A DNA stretch of 64,000 nucleotides, from NCBI GenBank assembly GCA_021813365.1, contig JAKALB010000002.1:1-64000 (forward strand), in the 5' to 3' direction. Within the stretch, counting starts at the first letter, position 1, and the number at the start of each line of letters is the position of its first letter. Positions 14 to 56,116 of this stretch are shown piece by piece. Made by a program: the position numbers and the translations under genes. The notes under the pieces were generated by a model. That model was not told where the DNA came from and did not search any database. It worked only from the letters and a program-made list of their open reading frames with translations. The stretch comes from Pseudomonadota bacterium. Lineage in GTDB: Bacteria > Pseudomonadota > Alphaproteobacteria > Rhodobacterales > Rhodobacteraceae.

Positions 14-67
14 GGGAGGGCTGTCTGCCCTCCCGGACCCTCCCGAGGATATTTGGGGCAAGATGAA
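14..67 (+). repeat. intergenic hairpin-GATATTT element, copy A
   Basis: GGGAGGGC-TGTCT-GCCCTCCC GGACCCTCCCGAGGATATTTGGGGCAAGATGAAG. Confidence 0.85.
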
Positions 68-13003: not shown

Positions 13004-13060
13004 ATGACGATAGCCGAGGAAGGGCGATTCCGGCAAGGGGAATCGGATGGGCAAAGCACC

Positions 13061-13110
13061 GGGGGCTTTCCGCCCCCGGACCCCCGAGGATATTTCGGGC
13101 AAGATGAAAG
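13061..13110 (+). repeat. intergenic hairpin-GATATTT element, copy B
   Basis: GGGGGC-TTTCC-GCCCCC GGACCCCCGAGGATATTTCGGGCAAGATGAAAG. Confidence 0.85.
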
Positions 13111-13112
13111 GG

Positions 13113-13862
13113 TCAGGGCGACGGCGGCGTGGGAATGGCCAGATAGGCGGCGGCCGGGATGCGGACCAGGCCCTTCAGGTGCAGCAGGGCCCGGTCGGCG
13201 GGCGCCAGGGTGGCCATGGCTTCGGTCACGGCGTCGTAGATTGCCTCGGCGCGGGCGTCCGGAGCGGAGATCAGGGGAAGCCCGGGCGTGGGATCGGTCA
13301 GGGCCACCTCGCGCAGGGCGCCGGCCAGGGCGGGATCATGCTCGCCGATCATCGCCCAGGTGACGGCATCCAGCGCCGCCAGATCGGCCTGGCCGCTGGC
13401 CACCGCCCTGGCCGAGGCGACATGGCCGCCGGTGCACGGACCGGGGGGGAAGGTCAACCCCAGCCTGGCCGCATGGTTCTGCGGGGCCGCCCAGCCGGAC
13501 TGGCTCAGCCCGTCGTTGTAGGCGATCGGTGTGCCATCGAAATCTGCCAGGTCGCGCGGGTCATCGGCGCGGGTGACCAGGACGCTGCGGTAATGGCCCG
13601 GCGGGCAACCCGTGACGCCATAATCCGGCGTGCCGATCAGGGTCACGCGACCATGCAGACGCGCCCGATAGGGAAAGCCGCAGGTCTGGCTCAGCACCAG
13701 ATCAGGCGACAGCCAGCCCGGCATATAGGCCATCTCGCCCCGTGTCAGGGTATCGGGCGCGGCAATGTCGCGGGCGCGCAGGCCGTCCCGGATCAGCGCC
13801 CACAGGCGGTCGTTGGCGGGTTGCACCTCTGGCCGATCATACATGCCCAGGGCGGCGATCAT
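13113..13862 (-). CDS. PhnD-like phosphate/phosphonate-type substrate-binding protein
   Basis: MIAALGMYDRPEVQPANDRLWALIRDGL..., DFDGTPIAYNDGLSQSGW; start inside ORF 13113..13988. Confidence 0.7.
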   Translation of the reverse strand: MIAALGMYDRPEVQPANDRLWALIRDGLRARDIAAPDTLTRGEMAYMPGWLSPDLVLSQTCGFPYRARLHGRVTLIGTPDYGVTGCPPGHYRSVLVTRADDPRDLADFDGTPIAYNDGLSQSGWAAPQNHAARLGLTFPPGPCTGGHVASARAVASGQADLAALDAVTWAMIGEHDPALAGALREVALTDPTPGLPLISAPDARAEAIYDAVTEAMATLAPADRALLHLKGLVRIPAAAYLAIPTPPSP

Positions 13863-27244: not shown

Positions 27245-27316
27245 GGGGGTAGAGGGGGAGGGGTTGCGGGGGAGGGGGGAGGGTTGAGGGGGAAGGGTTG
27301 CGGGGGAGGAAAGTGC
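27245..27316. other. G-rich/C-rich strand-asymmetric tract
   Basis: GGGGGTAGAGGGGGAGGGGTTGCGGGGGAGGGGGGAGGGTTGAGGGGGAAGGGTTGCGGGGGAGG on + strand. Confidence 0.8.
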
Positions 27317-27370
27317 CGGGGGGTTTCACACCCCCCGGACCCCCCGTGGGATATTTGTGAACAGATGAAG
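27316..27370 (+). repeat. intergenic hairpin-GATATTT element, copy C
   Basis: CCGGGGGGT-TTCAC-ACCCCCCGG ACCCCCCGTGGGATATTTGTGAACAGATGAAG. Confidence 0.85.
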
Positions 27371-27375
27371 GGGCT

Positions 27376-28755
27376 CTAGCAGTTTGGCACGTTGACCGCG
27401 AGGCCGCCCAGCGAGGTTTCCTTGTATTTCTCGTGCATGTCGCGTCCGGTCTGGCGCATGGTCTCGATGCAGACATCGAGCGAGACGAGGTGCTGGCCGT
27501 CGCCACGCAGTGCCAGGCTGGCGGCGGAGACCGCCTTGATGGCGCCCAGGCCGTTGCGCTCGATGCAGGGCACCTGGACCAGGCCCTTCACCGGGTCGCA
27601 GGTCATGCCCAAGTGATGTTCCAGCGCGATTTCGGCGGCGTTTTCCACCTGTTCCGGCGTGCCCCCCAGCACGGCCGCCAGACCTGCGGCGGCCATGGCA
27701 GCGGCAGAGCCGACCTCGGCCTGGCAGCCGCATTCCGCGCCCGAGATGCTGGCGTTGTGCTTGCACAGGCCGCCGACGGCGGCGGCGGTGAGCAGGAAAT
27801 CGGCGATTCGGGTCCGCGAGGCGCCGGGGACATGGTCGAGGTAGTAGCGCAGCACGGCGGGCAGCACGCCGGCGGCCCCGTTCGTGGGGGCGGTGACGAC
27901 CTGGCCGCCGGCGGCATTTTCCTCGTTCACCGCCATGGCATAGAGGCTCATCCAGTCGTTGATCGTGTGCGGCGGGGTCATGTTGAGCCCGCGTTCGGCC
28001 AGCAGCGCATCGTGGATGCCCTTGGCGCGGCGACGGACCTTCAGCCCGCCGGGCAGGATGCCCTCGGCGTTCATGCCGCGGTCGATGCAGGCGTTCATCA
28101 CCTCCCACAGCCGGTCGATGCCGCGGTCGATTTCGGCTCTCGAGCGGAATGTCAGTTCGTTGGCCAGCTTCATCTGGGCGATGGTCAGGCCGGATTTCCT
28201 GGCCATGGCCAGCATCTCGGCCGCGGTTTCGAAGGGCCAGGGCACCTCGGCCCGCGTCCTGGACCTGGCGCCGCCGGCAGCCTGGAGTTCGGTCTCGGTC
28301 ACCACGAAGCCGCCGCCGATGGAGTAGTAGGTTTCCTGCAGGATCACGTCGCCCTGGGCGTCGGTGGCCTTGAGGATCATGCCATTGGCATGGCCGGGCA
28401 GGTTCGGGCCGTAGTCGAAGGTCAGATCGCGTGCCGGATCGAAGGCCAGTTCGGGCAGGCCGGGGGGCTGGATGCGGTGTGTGGACCTGATGCTGGCCAG
28501 CGCCGCCTCGGCCCTTGCCGCGTCATAGGTGGCGGGGTCGAAGCCCGCGAGCCCCAGGATCGTGGCCCGGTCGGTGGCATGGCCCACGCCGGTGAAGGCC
28601 AGCGAGCCGTGCAGCGAGGCCTTCACGCCCCTGAAGTGGAACGGCGAGGCGCGCATCAGGTCCAGGAAGCGGCTGGCGGCGACCATCGGCCCCATCGTGT
28701 GCGAGGAGGACGGGCCGATGCCCACCTTGAACATGTCGAAGACAGAGAGGAACAT
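27376..28755 (-). CDS. sdaA: L-serine ammonia-lyase
   Basis: [53 protein letters not shown] cluster motif. Confidence 0.95.
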
Positions 28756-32154: not shown

Positions 32155-32202
32155 CTTTCATCTTGCCGGAAATATCCCGGGGGTCCGGGGGCTGGCCCCC
32201 GG
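32155..32202 (-). repeat. intergenic hairpin-GATATTT element, copy D
   Basis: reverse strand CCGGGGGCCAGCCCCCGGACCCCCGGGATATTTCCGGCAAGATGAAAG. Confidence 0.85.
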
Positions 32203-32250
32203 CCCGACATTCGGCCCGACATTCGGAATGTGCCATGAGCTTTGACCACG

Positions 32251-42497: not shown

Positions 42498-44240
42498 ATG
42501 ACCTTCAAGCCCGCCGCATGGCCCCGCAAACTCCGCTCGCAGTCCTGGTTCGGCGGCACCGAAAAGGACAACATCTATTACCGCGCCTGGATGAAGAACC
42601 AGGGCTTCCCGCCCGATCTGTTCGACGGCCGCCCGGTGATCGGCATCCTGAATACCTGGAGCGAGCTGACCCCCTGCAACGCCCATCTGAACGATCTGGC
42701 CCAGCGGGTGAAGCATGGCATCTACGAGGCGGGCGGCTTTCCGGTGGAAGTGCCGGTGTTTTCCACCTCGGAAAGCGCTTTCCGTCCCACCGCGATGATG
42801 TTTCGCAATCTGGCGTCCATGGCGGTTGAGGAACAGATGCGCGGCCTGCCGATGGATGGCTGCGTGCTGATGGTGGGCTGCGACAAGACCACGCCCAGCC
42901 TGCTGATGGCGGCAGCCTCGACCGATCTGCCCTCGATCATCCTGACCGGCGGGCCGATGCTGAACGGCTATTACAAGAACGAGCGGGTGGGCTCGGGCAC
43001 GCATCTGTGGAAATTCTCCGAGGCGGTGAAGGCCGGCACGATGACCAAGGAGGAATTCCTGGAGGCCGAAGGCTCGATGAGCCGCAGCCCGGGGTCGTGC
43101 AACACGATGGGAACGGCCAGCACGATGGCCAGCATGGCCGAGGCGCTGGGCATGGCGCTGTCGGGCAATGCGGCGATCCCGGCGGTCGACAGCCGCCGCC
43201 GGGTGATGGCGCAACTGACCGGGCGGCGGATCGTGCAGATGGTCAAGGACGATCTGAAACCCTCCGACGTGCTGAAGAAGCAGGCCTTCGAGAACGCGAT
43301 CCGCACCAATGCGGCCATCGGCGGGTCGACCAATGCCGTCATCCACCTGCTGGCCATCGCCGGCCGGGTCGGCGTGGACCTGACCCTGGACGACTGGGAC
43401 CGCTGCGGGCGCGACGTGCCGACGATCGTGAACCTGATGCCCTCGGGCAAATACCTGATGGAAGAGTTCTTCTATGCCGGCGGCCTGCCGGTGGTCATCA
43501 AGCGGCTGGGCGAGGCGGGGCTCCTGCACAAGGACGCGCTGACCGTCTCGGGCGAGACGATGTGGGACCAGGTGAAGGATGTGGTCAACCACAACCCCGA
43601 CGTGATCCTGCCGACCGACAAGGCGCTGACCAGGTCGGGCGGCGTGGTGGTGCTGAAGGGCAATCTGGCGCCCAGGGGGGCGGTGCTGAAACCCTCGGCG
43701 GCGACGCCGGCGCTGATGGTGCACCGCGGCCGCGCGGTGGTGTTCGAAGACATCGACGACTACAAGGCCAAGATCAACGACGAGACGCTGGACATCGACG
43801 AGACCTGCGTGATGGTCCTGAAGAACTGCGGGCCCAAGGGCTATCCCGGCATGGCCGAAGTCGGCAACATGGGCCTGCCGCCCAAGATCCTGCGCAAGGG
43901 CATCACCGACATGGTGCGGATTTCGGACGCGCGCATGTCGGGCACGGCCTATGGCACGGTCTGCCTGCACACCAGCCCCGAGGCGGCGGCCGGAGGCCCG
44001 CTGGCCGTGGTGCAGAACGGCGATTTCATCGAACTGGACGTGCCGAACCGCCGCCTGCACCTCGACATTTCCGATGCCGAACTGGCGGCGCGGCTGGCCA
44101 GATGGAAGCCCAGCCATGTGCAGGCGGATTCGGGCTATCTGTGGCTGCACCAGCAGAACGTGCTGGGGGCGGATACCGGGGCCGACCTGGGCTTTCTGAG
44201 GGGCTGCCGCGGCGCGGCGGTGGGCAAGGATTCGCATTGA
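42498..44240 (+). CDS. IlvD/Edd family sugar-acid dehydratase (L-arabinonate dehydratase-like)
   Basis: LNTWSELTPCNAHLNDLAQRVK, VGCDKTTPSLLMAAAS, SPGSCNTMGTASTM. Confidence 0.9.
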   Translation: MTFKPAAWPRKLRSQSWFGGTEKDNIYYRAWMKNQGFPPDLFDGRPVIGILNTWSELTPCNAHLNDLAQRVKHGIYEAGGFPVEVPVFSTSESAFRPTAMMFRNLASMAVEEQMRGLPMDGCVLMVGCDKTTPSLLMAAASTDLPSIILTGGPMLNGYYKNERVGSGTHLWKFSEAVKAGTMTKEEFLEAEGSMSRSPGSCNTMGTASTMASMAEALGMALSGNAAIPAVDSRRRVMAQLTGRRIVQMVKDDLKPSDVLKKQAFENAIRTNAAIGGSTNAVIHLLAIAGRVGVDLTLDDWDRCGRDVPTIVNLMPSGKYLMEEFFYAGGLPVVIKRLGEAGLLHKDALTVSGETMWDQVKDVVNHNPDVILPTDKALTRSGGVVVLKGNLAPRGAVLKPSAATPALMVHRGRAVVFEDIDDYKAKINDETLDIDETCVMVLKNCGPKGYPGMAEVGNMGLPPKILRKGITDMVRISDARMSGTAYGTVCLHTSPEAAAGGPLAVVQNGDFIELDVPNRRLHLDISDAELAARLARWKPSHVQADSGYLWLHQQNVLGADTGADLGFLRGCRGAAVGKDSH

Positions 44241-45151
44241 TGAAGATTGCCCTGGTCGGCATCGGCAAGATCGCCCTGGATCAGCATGTGCCCGCCATCG
44301 CCGCCTCGCCCGATTGGGAGCTGGCGGCGACCGTGTCGCGCAAGGGCCGGGTGGACGGCATCGAATCGCATGCGGACTTCGCCAGTTTTCTGGCCGCGCG
44401 CCCCGATGTGGGCGTGGTCAGCCTGACCATGCCGCCCGCGCCGCGCTTTGCCTTTGCCGAGGCGGCGCTGCGGGCCGGCCGCCATGTGATGCTGGAAAAG
44501 CCACCCGGCGCGACCCTGGCCGAAGTGCATGAACTGGCCGCGCTGGCGGCAGCGCGGGGCCTGACGCTCTTCGCCACCTGGCACAGCCGGATGGCCCTGG
44601 CCGTGGCCCCGGCCAGAGCCTGGCTCAGGGGCCGGACGATCACCCGCGCCCATGTCACCTGGCGCGAGGATGTGCGGCGCTGGCATCCCGGGCAGGACTG
44701 GGTGTTCGAACCCGGCGGCATGGGCGTCTTCGACCCGGGCATCAACGCCCTGTCGATCCTCACCGAAATCCTGCCCGCCCCGGTGCACCTGACCGGCGCG
44801 ACCCTGACCTACCCTGAGAACTGCCACACCCCGATCGCGGCCGAACTCACCTTCAGCGGCGGCATCACCGCGGATTTCGACTGGCGCCAGCAGGGCCCGC
44901 AGACCTGGGATATCGACATCCACACCGATGCGGGCCACCTGGCCCTGCGGATGGGCGGCAACCGGCTGTTGATCGACGGCGTCGAAAGTGCGGGCGAGAA
45001 TTCGATCATGGGCGAATATCCCGCGCTTTATGCCCGCATGGCGCAACTGGTGAAAACCGGCACCTCCGACGTCGATCTGGCGCCGCTGACCCATGTCGCC
45101 GATGCGATGACCCTGGGGCGCCGCGTGATCGTGCCGCCCTTCCACCTCTAG
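44240..45151 (+). CDS. Gfo/Idh/MocA family oxidoreductase (D-galactose/L-arabinose 1-dehydrogenase-like)
   Basis: MKIALVGIGKIALDQHVPAIA; MLEKPPGATLAEV; WREDVRRWHPGQDWVFEPGGMGVFDPGINALSI. Confidence 0.87.
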   Translation: MKIALVGIGKIALDQHVPAIAASPDWELAATVSRKGRVDGIESHADFASFLAARPDVGVVSLTMPPAPRFAFAEAALRAGRHVMLEKPPGATLAEVHELAALAAARGLTLFATWHSRMALAVAPARAWLRGRTITRAHVTWREDVRRWHPGQDWVFEPGGMGVFDPGINALSILTEILPAPVHLTGATLTYPENCHTPIAAELTFSGGITADFDWRQQGPQTWDIDIHTDAGHLALRMGGNRLLIDGVESAGENSIMGEYPALYARMAQLVKTGTSDVDLAPLTHVADAMTLGRRVIVPPFHL

Positions 45152-45153
45152 AC

Positions 45154-45206
45154 CTTTCATCTTGCCTCAAATATCCCACGGGGGTCCGGGGGTGTGAAAC
45201 CCCCGG
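45154..45206 (-). repeat. intergenic hairpin-GATATTT element, copy E
   Basis: reverse strand CCGGGGGT-TTCAC-ACCCCCGG ACCCCCGTGGGATATTTGAGGCAAGATGAAAG. Confidence 0.88.
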
Positions 45207-55996: not shown

Positions 55997-56078
55997 CGCC
56001 GCGGGCCGCAAGAGCGGCGGAGCGGCTGCGCCGCAAGATCGACTGTCGCCTCTGCGCGTGCCGCGCAACCGGCTCCGC

Positions 56079-56116
56079 GGCCTCCGGCGGGGGTATTTGC
56101 CGCAAGGTGAAAGATG
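56079..56116 (+). repeat. related intergenic element, copy F (GGCGGGGGTATTTG class)
   Basis: GGCCTCCGGCGGGGGTATTTGCCGCAAGGTGAAAGATG. Confidence 0.65.

Follow-up and report, generated by a model that had tools for sequence, protein, structure and literature searches.

A dispersed gene-end repeat of the Rhodobacteraceae predicted to form a triple-stranded H-type pseudoknot

The window analysed here, a single stretch of DNA 64,000 nucleotides in length, holds six intergenic copies (A–F) of a short repeated element. Five of these had been claimed by an earlier sequence-only reading of the same DNA; all five lie where it placed them, to within 1–2 bases at either edge, and have in common the hairpin and the conserved block that it described. 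The sixth, copy F, is a degenerate ‘type III’ copy that it did not list. The parts of the copies, with S1 and S2 denoting stems, C1 and C2 the two C-runs and L3 a connecting loop, are as follows.

Copy A, 13-69, + strand: whole element, 37.7 bits
Copy A, 13-21/27-35, + strand: hairpin stem S1, CGGGAGGGC:GCCCTCCCG
Copy A, 22-26, + strand: hairpin loop, TGTCT
Copy A, 38-44, + strand: C2, candidate third strand, CCCTCCC
Copy A, 47-54, + strand: GGATATTT, then the tail up to 69
Copy B, 13059-13110, + strand: whole element, 74.7 bits; S1 CCGGGGGC:GCCCCCGG, loop TTTCC, C2 CCCCC
Copy B, 3′ part, + strand: GAGGATATTT after C2, then the tail
Copy C, 27316-27370, + strand: whole element, 56 bits; S1 CCGGGGGGT:ACCCCCCGG, C2 CCCCCC
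Copy C, loop, + strand: TTCAC, predicted to pair with GTG(GG)
Copy C, 27349-27356, + strand: GGATATTT
Copy D, 32155-32202, − strand: whole element; S1 CCGGGGG:CCCCCGG, loop CCAG, C2 CCCCC
Copy D, 32177-32170, − strand: GGATATTT
Copy E, 45154-45206, − strand: whole element, 86.8 bits
Copy E, 45199-45206, − strand: 5′ (purine) arm of S1, CCGGGGGT
Copy E, 45194-45198, − strand: hairpin loop and putative 5′ strand of S2, TTCAC
Copy E, 45186-45193, − strand: 3′ arm of S1 (C1), ACCCCCGG
Copy E, 45180-45184, − strand: C2 run, putative loop L3 and mirror-matched third strand of S1, CCCCC
Copy E, 45175-45179, − strand: putative 3′ strand of S2, GTGGG
Copy E, 45169-45173, − strand: TATTT, directly 3′ of the predicted pseudoknot
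Copy E, 45154-45168, − strand: purine-rich tail, ending ...GCAAGATGAAAG
Copy F, 56061-56114, + strand: degenerate type III element, 24.3 bits, E 6e-5; GCCTCCGGCGGGGGTATTTGCCGCAAGGTGAAAG

Copies B, C, D and E are all antisense to genes beside them. Copy B is antisense to both of its neighbours, with the stop of the upstream gene (13113-13862, − strand) only 2 nt away; copy C lies downstream of a serine dehydratase gene (27376-28755, − strand); copy D occupies an operon gap between genes for ribose-5-phosphate isomerase and a pyridine-nucleotide oxidoreductase; and copy E lies 2 nt past the stop of a GFO_IDH gene (44240-45151, + strand), ahead of an aldehyde dehydrogenase gene. Copy F is in the sense orientation between two + strand genes. 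The hairpin of copy D is directly adjoined by a 12-base tandem duplication (CCGAATGTCGGG twice; window positions 32203-32230). Across the window, the motif GG[AG]TATTT/GAGTATTT has a density of 0.86 per kb in intergenic DNA versus 0.04 per kb in genes, and its six intergenic occurrences all belong to these elements.

The conserved block, written as GGACCCN{1,6}GGATATTTN{2,6}CAAGATGAA, has 35 exact matches in the 3.36-Mb genome, compared with 0 for a reversed control pattern. A covariance model, a check that the sequence-only reading had proposed, gives at least 150 matches in the genome (best E value, 5e-23), a genome-wide enrichment; together, these matches show that the copies are not due to chance. 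The element is present in 12 of 12 genomes of the same genus, with 42 to 150 matches each, and 81 of 101 Rhodobacteraceae genomes, representing 80 of the 100 sampled genera, have at least one match; named carriers include Rhodobacter, Paracoccus, Thioclava, Sinisalibacter, Gemmobacter, Fuscovulum, Thalassococcus and Tropicibacter. A class-wide sample of 190 genomes yielded just two marginal matches outside the family, on which basis we rejected a spread throughout the class. The element is specific to Rhodobacteraceae and essentially absent elsewhere in the class, which agrees with the remark in the earlier reading that similar strings are common in genomes of this family.

The earlier reading gave no assigned function for such strings, and database searches place the element in no known family. 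Rfam gave 0 matches in the window at the gathering threshold, and a permissive Rfam search of the six loci returned one sub-threshold match and none of relevance. Literature searches on the topic and on sequence strings, which covered open papers, found no account of the element. A phage origin was rejected, as there was no match among 50,697 phage records.

S1 is a G-run/C-run hairpin of 7–12 bp. When its two outermost pairs are read without constraint, they are Watson–Crick in 210 and 205 of 216 copies, and all four types (C-G, U-A, G-C and A-U) are seen. The stems therefore vary in sequence yet stay paired, the covariation that had been proposed from the five window copies. Wobbles and mismatches among the 432 outer pairs include only two G·T and three A·C. 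An RNA that acts as a single strand would not usually show such a scarcity of wobbles, which suggests selection on both strands or on the DNA itself. The earlier conclusion of a selected RNA structure thus stands as to the fold being selected but less surely as to RNA: G·U is nearly absent (2 of 432) and both orientations are used equally, which leaves room for a fold of the DNA or of both strands. A test of strand from wobbles had too few such pairs to draw on, and the conserved U·G pairs at the base of S2 vary too little.

The block after the hairpin had been described as single-stranded. Covariation contradicts this, and indicates instead that one part of the block pairs with the loop of the hairpin and another part is a mirror of the stem. 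The last three bases of the loop covary with the three bases that precede G(G/A)(A/G)TATTT, in the combinations CAC:GTG, CGC:GCG, TGC:GCA and TCC:GGA. Among 187 distinct copies whose loop is 5 nt long, this second stem (S2) is fully complementary in 171; when the suffixes were shuffled in 2,000 trials, the number was 97 on average and never exceeded 111; among copies with loops other than CAC, 42 of 53 are complementary (shuffle maximum, 23). When 30 distinct sequences are aligned without gaps, 99.5% of the cells of S1 and S2 are paired, versus 89.2% after shuffling, and the covariation score is 0.350 versus 0.138; neither value was reached in 500 shuffles. Sliding the partner by 1–3 columns destroys the covariation of S1 and S2 (scores of at most 0.107), and double changes are seen at S2 pairs 11:30 and 12:29 of this alignment. 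The predicted pairing of loop and block is that of an H-type pseudoknot, with an S1 of 7–12 bp, an S2 of 3–6 bp and a connector, L3, made up of A or G followed by the second C-run.

This second run, C2, mirrors the pyrimidine arm of S1 and is not a direct repeat of it. C2 already looked mirror-like in copies from the window’s own genome whose purine arm contains an A, and the pattern was examined in two scans of 397 Rhodobacteraceae genomes in which only S1 was fixed and C2 was left free past its first two C’s. For stems GGAGGG:CCCTCC, the first non-C base of C2 is at position 3, as a mirror predicts, in 52 of 52 distinct rows (26 genomes), where a direct repeat would need position 4 or 5; for stems GGGGAGG:CCTCCCC, it is at position 5, again the mirror position, in 22 of 22 distinct rows (14 genomes), where a direct repeat would need position 3 or 4. 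None of the 74 rows has its non-C base at a direct-repeat position, and that base is T in 62, A in 10 and G in 2. Pure-G stems have CCCC in C2 without exception (193 of 193), and a stem with two A’s (L245; GGAGGAGGGG) is accompanied by the C2 CCTCCTCC, with T’s at both mirror positions.

Because C2 is a mirror and not a direct repeat, it carries the signature of a third strand and not of alternative pairing, and because mirror repeats are not made by template copying, a structural third strand is indicated. The register is the one expected of an H-type fold, which lays L3 along S1 parallel to the purine arm. The covariation points to a third-strand code with C opposite G-C; opposite A-U/T the base is U/T in most cases and A in some. 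The complementary strand of these bases would also yield an H-type fold, with a G-rich loop antiparallel to the purine strand. The code of purine-motif triplexes is A·A-T and T·A-T. The T-or-A choice on the complementary strand equals this code. A minor-groove reading (sense strand) and a purine-motif reading (antisense strand) both fit the third-strand code. Two other arrangements were rejected: a G arm that switches its Watson–Crick partner between C1 and C2, as C2 is the mirror of C1; and a mini-hairpin of C2 with the G’s that follow it, which is not conserved (CCCCCGGG cannot fold).

Directly after S2, and more than 10 nt past the main stem, comes TATTT. When copies are anchored on the hairpin alone, it is found at a spacing of 9–12, counted from the first two connector bases after S1, in 175 of 183 copies. 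The purine-rich tail is loosely conserved and differs between lineages; the conserved tail of the sequence-only reading, CAAGATGAAAG, holds in this genome, but outside it is just loosely conserved. Two variants depart from the main form: type II has a mini-hairpin within L3, and type III has a reduced 5′ part, GCCTCCGGCGGGGATATTT. Type II members of tail-to-tail pairs have the form GGGGGGCTCTGCCCCCC-GGCTTCGCC-TCCCCCCGGGATATTT, with the mini-hairpin in the connector (L168, L169, L176, L178, L185 and others), and several such pairs have a common extended spacer, as if paired units of about 150 bp had been copied whole. A separate subfamily in one MAG (L090, positions 1088-1142, and L110, position 2340) has another tail (GGATATTTGGATCACTGTTGAG) and a 5′ part consisting of a hairpin and TTCACCCC; L090 also has a tail-to-tail pair.

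Placement was assessed with a simple purpose-made open reading frame caller that was checked against three annotated plasmid records. None of 189 copies lies within a gene. Neighbouring genes are convergent in 50 cases, co-directional in 117 and divergent in 12. Most copies follow shortly after a stop codon, whichever way they point, and divergent promoters are avoided. Co-directional gaps hold 54 sense and 63 antisense copies, with 96 versus 98 nt of gap left over (p = 0.54), and 39% of sense copies are in operon-like gaps; operon polarity, in the form of scarcer sense copies in tight gaps, was looked for and not seen. Annotated plasmids agree, with a convergent case in Paracoccus saliphilus and an antisense co-directional case in Gemmobacter fulvus. 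A sense copy lies between bchY and bchZ, amid bch/puf genes, on plasmid pS3A of Thalassococcus sp. S3 (L317), and offers a good natural site at which to test for an effect on expression. Where copies lie close together, 49 pairs are tail-to-tail, 2 head-to-head and 1 tandem; the tail-to-tail pairs have a sharp TATTT-to-AAATA spacing (mode, 45–47), and more than half of them are in convergent gene pairs. None of the nine convergent gaps in the window has an element. Classical U-run terminators are found at 0–12% of the examined gene ends in every class, a rarity that makes mutual exclusion with canonical terminators uninformative.

The histories of individual sites differ. Copy D occurs in its own genome only and is missing from 13 same-genus orthologues, and copy B is in 3 of the 14 genomes that match its gene, one of these being unreadable. 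Every one of the 14 readable orthologues within the genus (the window’s own genome included) carries copy E, and S1 is intact in 13 of them, in three compensated forms (CC:GG, CT:AG and GC:GC); the remaining orthologue (L225, genome G009) is split by an apparent insertion sequence inside the hairpin, and its 5′ stem arm is gone. No element accompanies the copy E gene in 16 orthologues from other genera; in those that retain the aldehyde dehydrogenase neighbour, only 15–18 nt separate the two genes. Copy E was thus inserted and then maintained. Elements are gained by insertion into the gaps of operons and can persist there while their stems change in a compensatory way; some of this compensation at copy E could be due to gene conversion by other copies and not to selection at the site.

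The family also spreads, given that one genome (G407) has 102 matches to a single stem variant that are near-identical among the matches listed; this recent expansion could reveal the mechanism of spreading. The copies in this genome (for example, L288-L297) have two tails, GCAAGATGAAAG and ATGCACAGTGGATGG. The suggestion that a REP-associated transposase might be found was not borne out: Y1_Tnp (PF01797) has 0 matches in the window’s own genome and one sub-threshold match among eight same-genus genomes. Regarding features of MITEs, solo copies lack terminal inverted repeats, and the empty sites are too diverged for a target-site duplication to be read.

We tentatively interpret these copies, at somewhat less than even confidence, as a REP-like dispersed element of about 55 bases that folds as a triple-stranded H-type pseudoknot and serves as a gene-end boundary that blocks 3′ exonucleases. 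Sequence comparison shows a covarying pseudoknot, a third strand matched as a mirror, a position at gene ends in both orientations, gain through insertion, and retention of one site over a long time; the blocking role we infer from placement and by analogy. A very rigid fold, which either complementary strand could form, would mark the boundary of a gene behind its stop codon and would halt 3′-to-5′ exonucleases (PNPase and RNase R), and the halted exonuclease would set the 3′ end and the stability of the upstream message. REP elements of E. coli set message 3′ ends and stability in a similar way. The boundary reading is consistent with orientation neutrality, with copies in the gaps of operons as well as between convergent genes, and with the avoidance of divergent promoters; it leaves the conserved TATTT without an explained role.

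TATTT would have such a role were the element a pseudoknot-type terminator, in which S2 would form on the sense strand as RNA polymerase reaches TATTT, strip GUGGGA from the RNA–DNA hybrid and free the transcript. The abutment of structure and TATTT, the position of copies at gene ends where classical U-run terminators are rare, and the predominance of tail-to-tail pairs, through which each gene of a convergent pair meets a sense copy, all speak for termination. We nevertheless consider it rather unlikely: co-directional gaps contain sense and antisense copies in similar numbers, with equal lengths of gap left over, sense copies sit in operon-like gaps and even between bchY and bchZ, the antisense copy E has been maintained, the U-tract is short, and the window’s convergent gaps are empty. 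RAYT transposases recognise REP hairpins, and the fold could likewise be a strand-specific substrate for a mobilising enzyme, the element being a purely selfish repeat for which gene ends are harmless insertion sites. This, too, we judge unlikely. The lineage-specific expansion in G407, the insertions of copies D and E into operon gaps, the orientation-neutral avoidance of promoters and genes, and the fixed spacing of tail-to-tail pairs are what such a repeat would produce, but its own genome has no match to a Y1 transposase, copy E is intact and compensated across the genus when a dead copy should decay, and presence in 80 of 100 genera suggests long-term retention.

It is more improbable still that the structure acts as DNA, with the inverted and mirror repeats extruding an intramolecular triplex or knotted hairpin, the G-rich strand forming a purine-motif triplex, and effects on supercoiling, replication or nucleoid proteins. 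Against such a structure, the pairing of the loop with the suffix in S2 needs a single strand, the arms (5–8 bases) are short for H-DNA, and the preference for gene ends rather than divergent spacers hints at a connection with transcripts. In its favour are mirror symmetry, strict Watson–Crick pairing with almost no G·T, a purine-motif code opposite A-T and orientation-neutral placement. That the near-absence of G·U and the T-or-A code opposite A-T would also suit a DNA fold is a point against the boundary element that we favour.

Base triples are hard to detect by comparative analysis because they rarely covary. The clean mirror covariation at A-containing stem positions, seen over dozens of genera and beside Watson–Crick covariation of both pseudoknot stems, could therefore serve as a natural data set on triplex rules and, if the third strand is real, would allow its pairing rules to be derived from covariation in nature. 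Gene ends are marked by the elements throughout the Rhodobacteraceae, a family that includes laboratory phototrophs (Rhodobacter) and denitrifiers (Paracoccus), and if the elements set the 3′ ends or stability of mRNAs, expression would be affected at hundreds of loci. It is possible, although we put it below an even chance and hold it loosely, that this family-wide repeat, with up to hundreds of copies per genome and an evolution governed by a triple-helical pseudoknot, is a previously undescribed general gene-end signal or boundary.

Several known systems share parts of this description. Rho-independent terminators also place a GC-rich stem, with A/T-rich sequence after it, at the 3′ ends of genes, but the element has TATTT and no U-run (5 or more) directly after its main stem, shows no sense bias (54 versus 63) and also occurs in operon-like gaps. 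The mirror repeats of H-DNA share the purine/pyrimidine mirror symmetry, whereas in the element a hairpin stem lies between the mirror arms, and the third strand is on the hairpin’s own strand. Luteoviral frameshift pseudoknots are H-type folds with triple helices. The SAM-V riboswitch (PMC6061858) and the guanidine-III riboswitch (PMC5696562) are likewise reported to be H-type pseudoknots with base triples. Riboswitch and luteoviral pseudoknots share with the element the H-type topology and a loop strand in base triples against a stem. The element differs from them in that each base of its third strand changes together with the stem across dozens of genera, and in being a repeat scattered behind genes and not a riboswitch or recoding signal. 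The motif HRC-8-4 (PMC8632094) is a structured motif near gene ends that is likewise limited to Rhodobacterales; its stem resembles a terminator, with a U-run, and occurs chiefly at the ccoP-ccoG site, and identity was rejected as this motif has the U-run and is not dispersed.

REP/BIME sequences (E. coli, Pseudomonas and the SMAG repeats of Stenotrophomonas) are similar in being short extragenic palindromes with many copies per genome, located at gene 3′ ends with promoters avoided, and in forming inverted pairs at fixed spacing without regard to orientation. They differ in that the element has no GTAG-type tetranucleotide foot (its foot varies among CC, CT, GC, GT and TT), in that no RAYT (Y1_Tnp) was found for it, and in that its stem varies while its flank is conserved; to our knowledge, a pseudoknot stem such as S2 and a mirror-matched third strand are no part of the REP definition. 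Identity with the REP/RAYT system was rejected, with neither a transposase nor a GTAG foot found. The nearest kind of element is thus REP/BIME, with two of its defining features, the foot and the RAYT, failing, and the nearest fold is an H-type pseudoknot with base triples.
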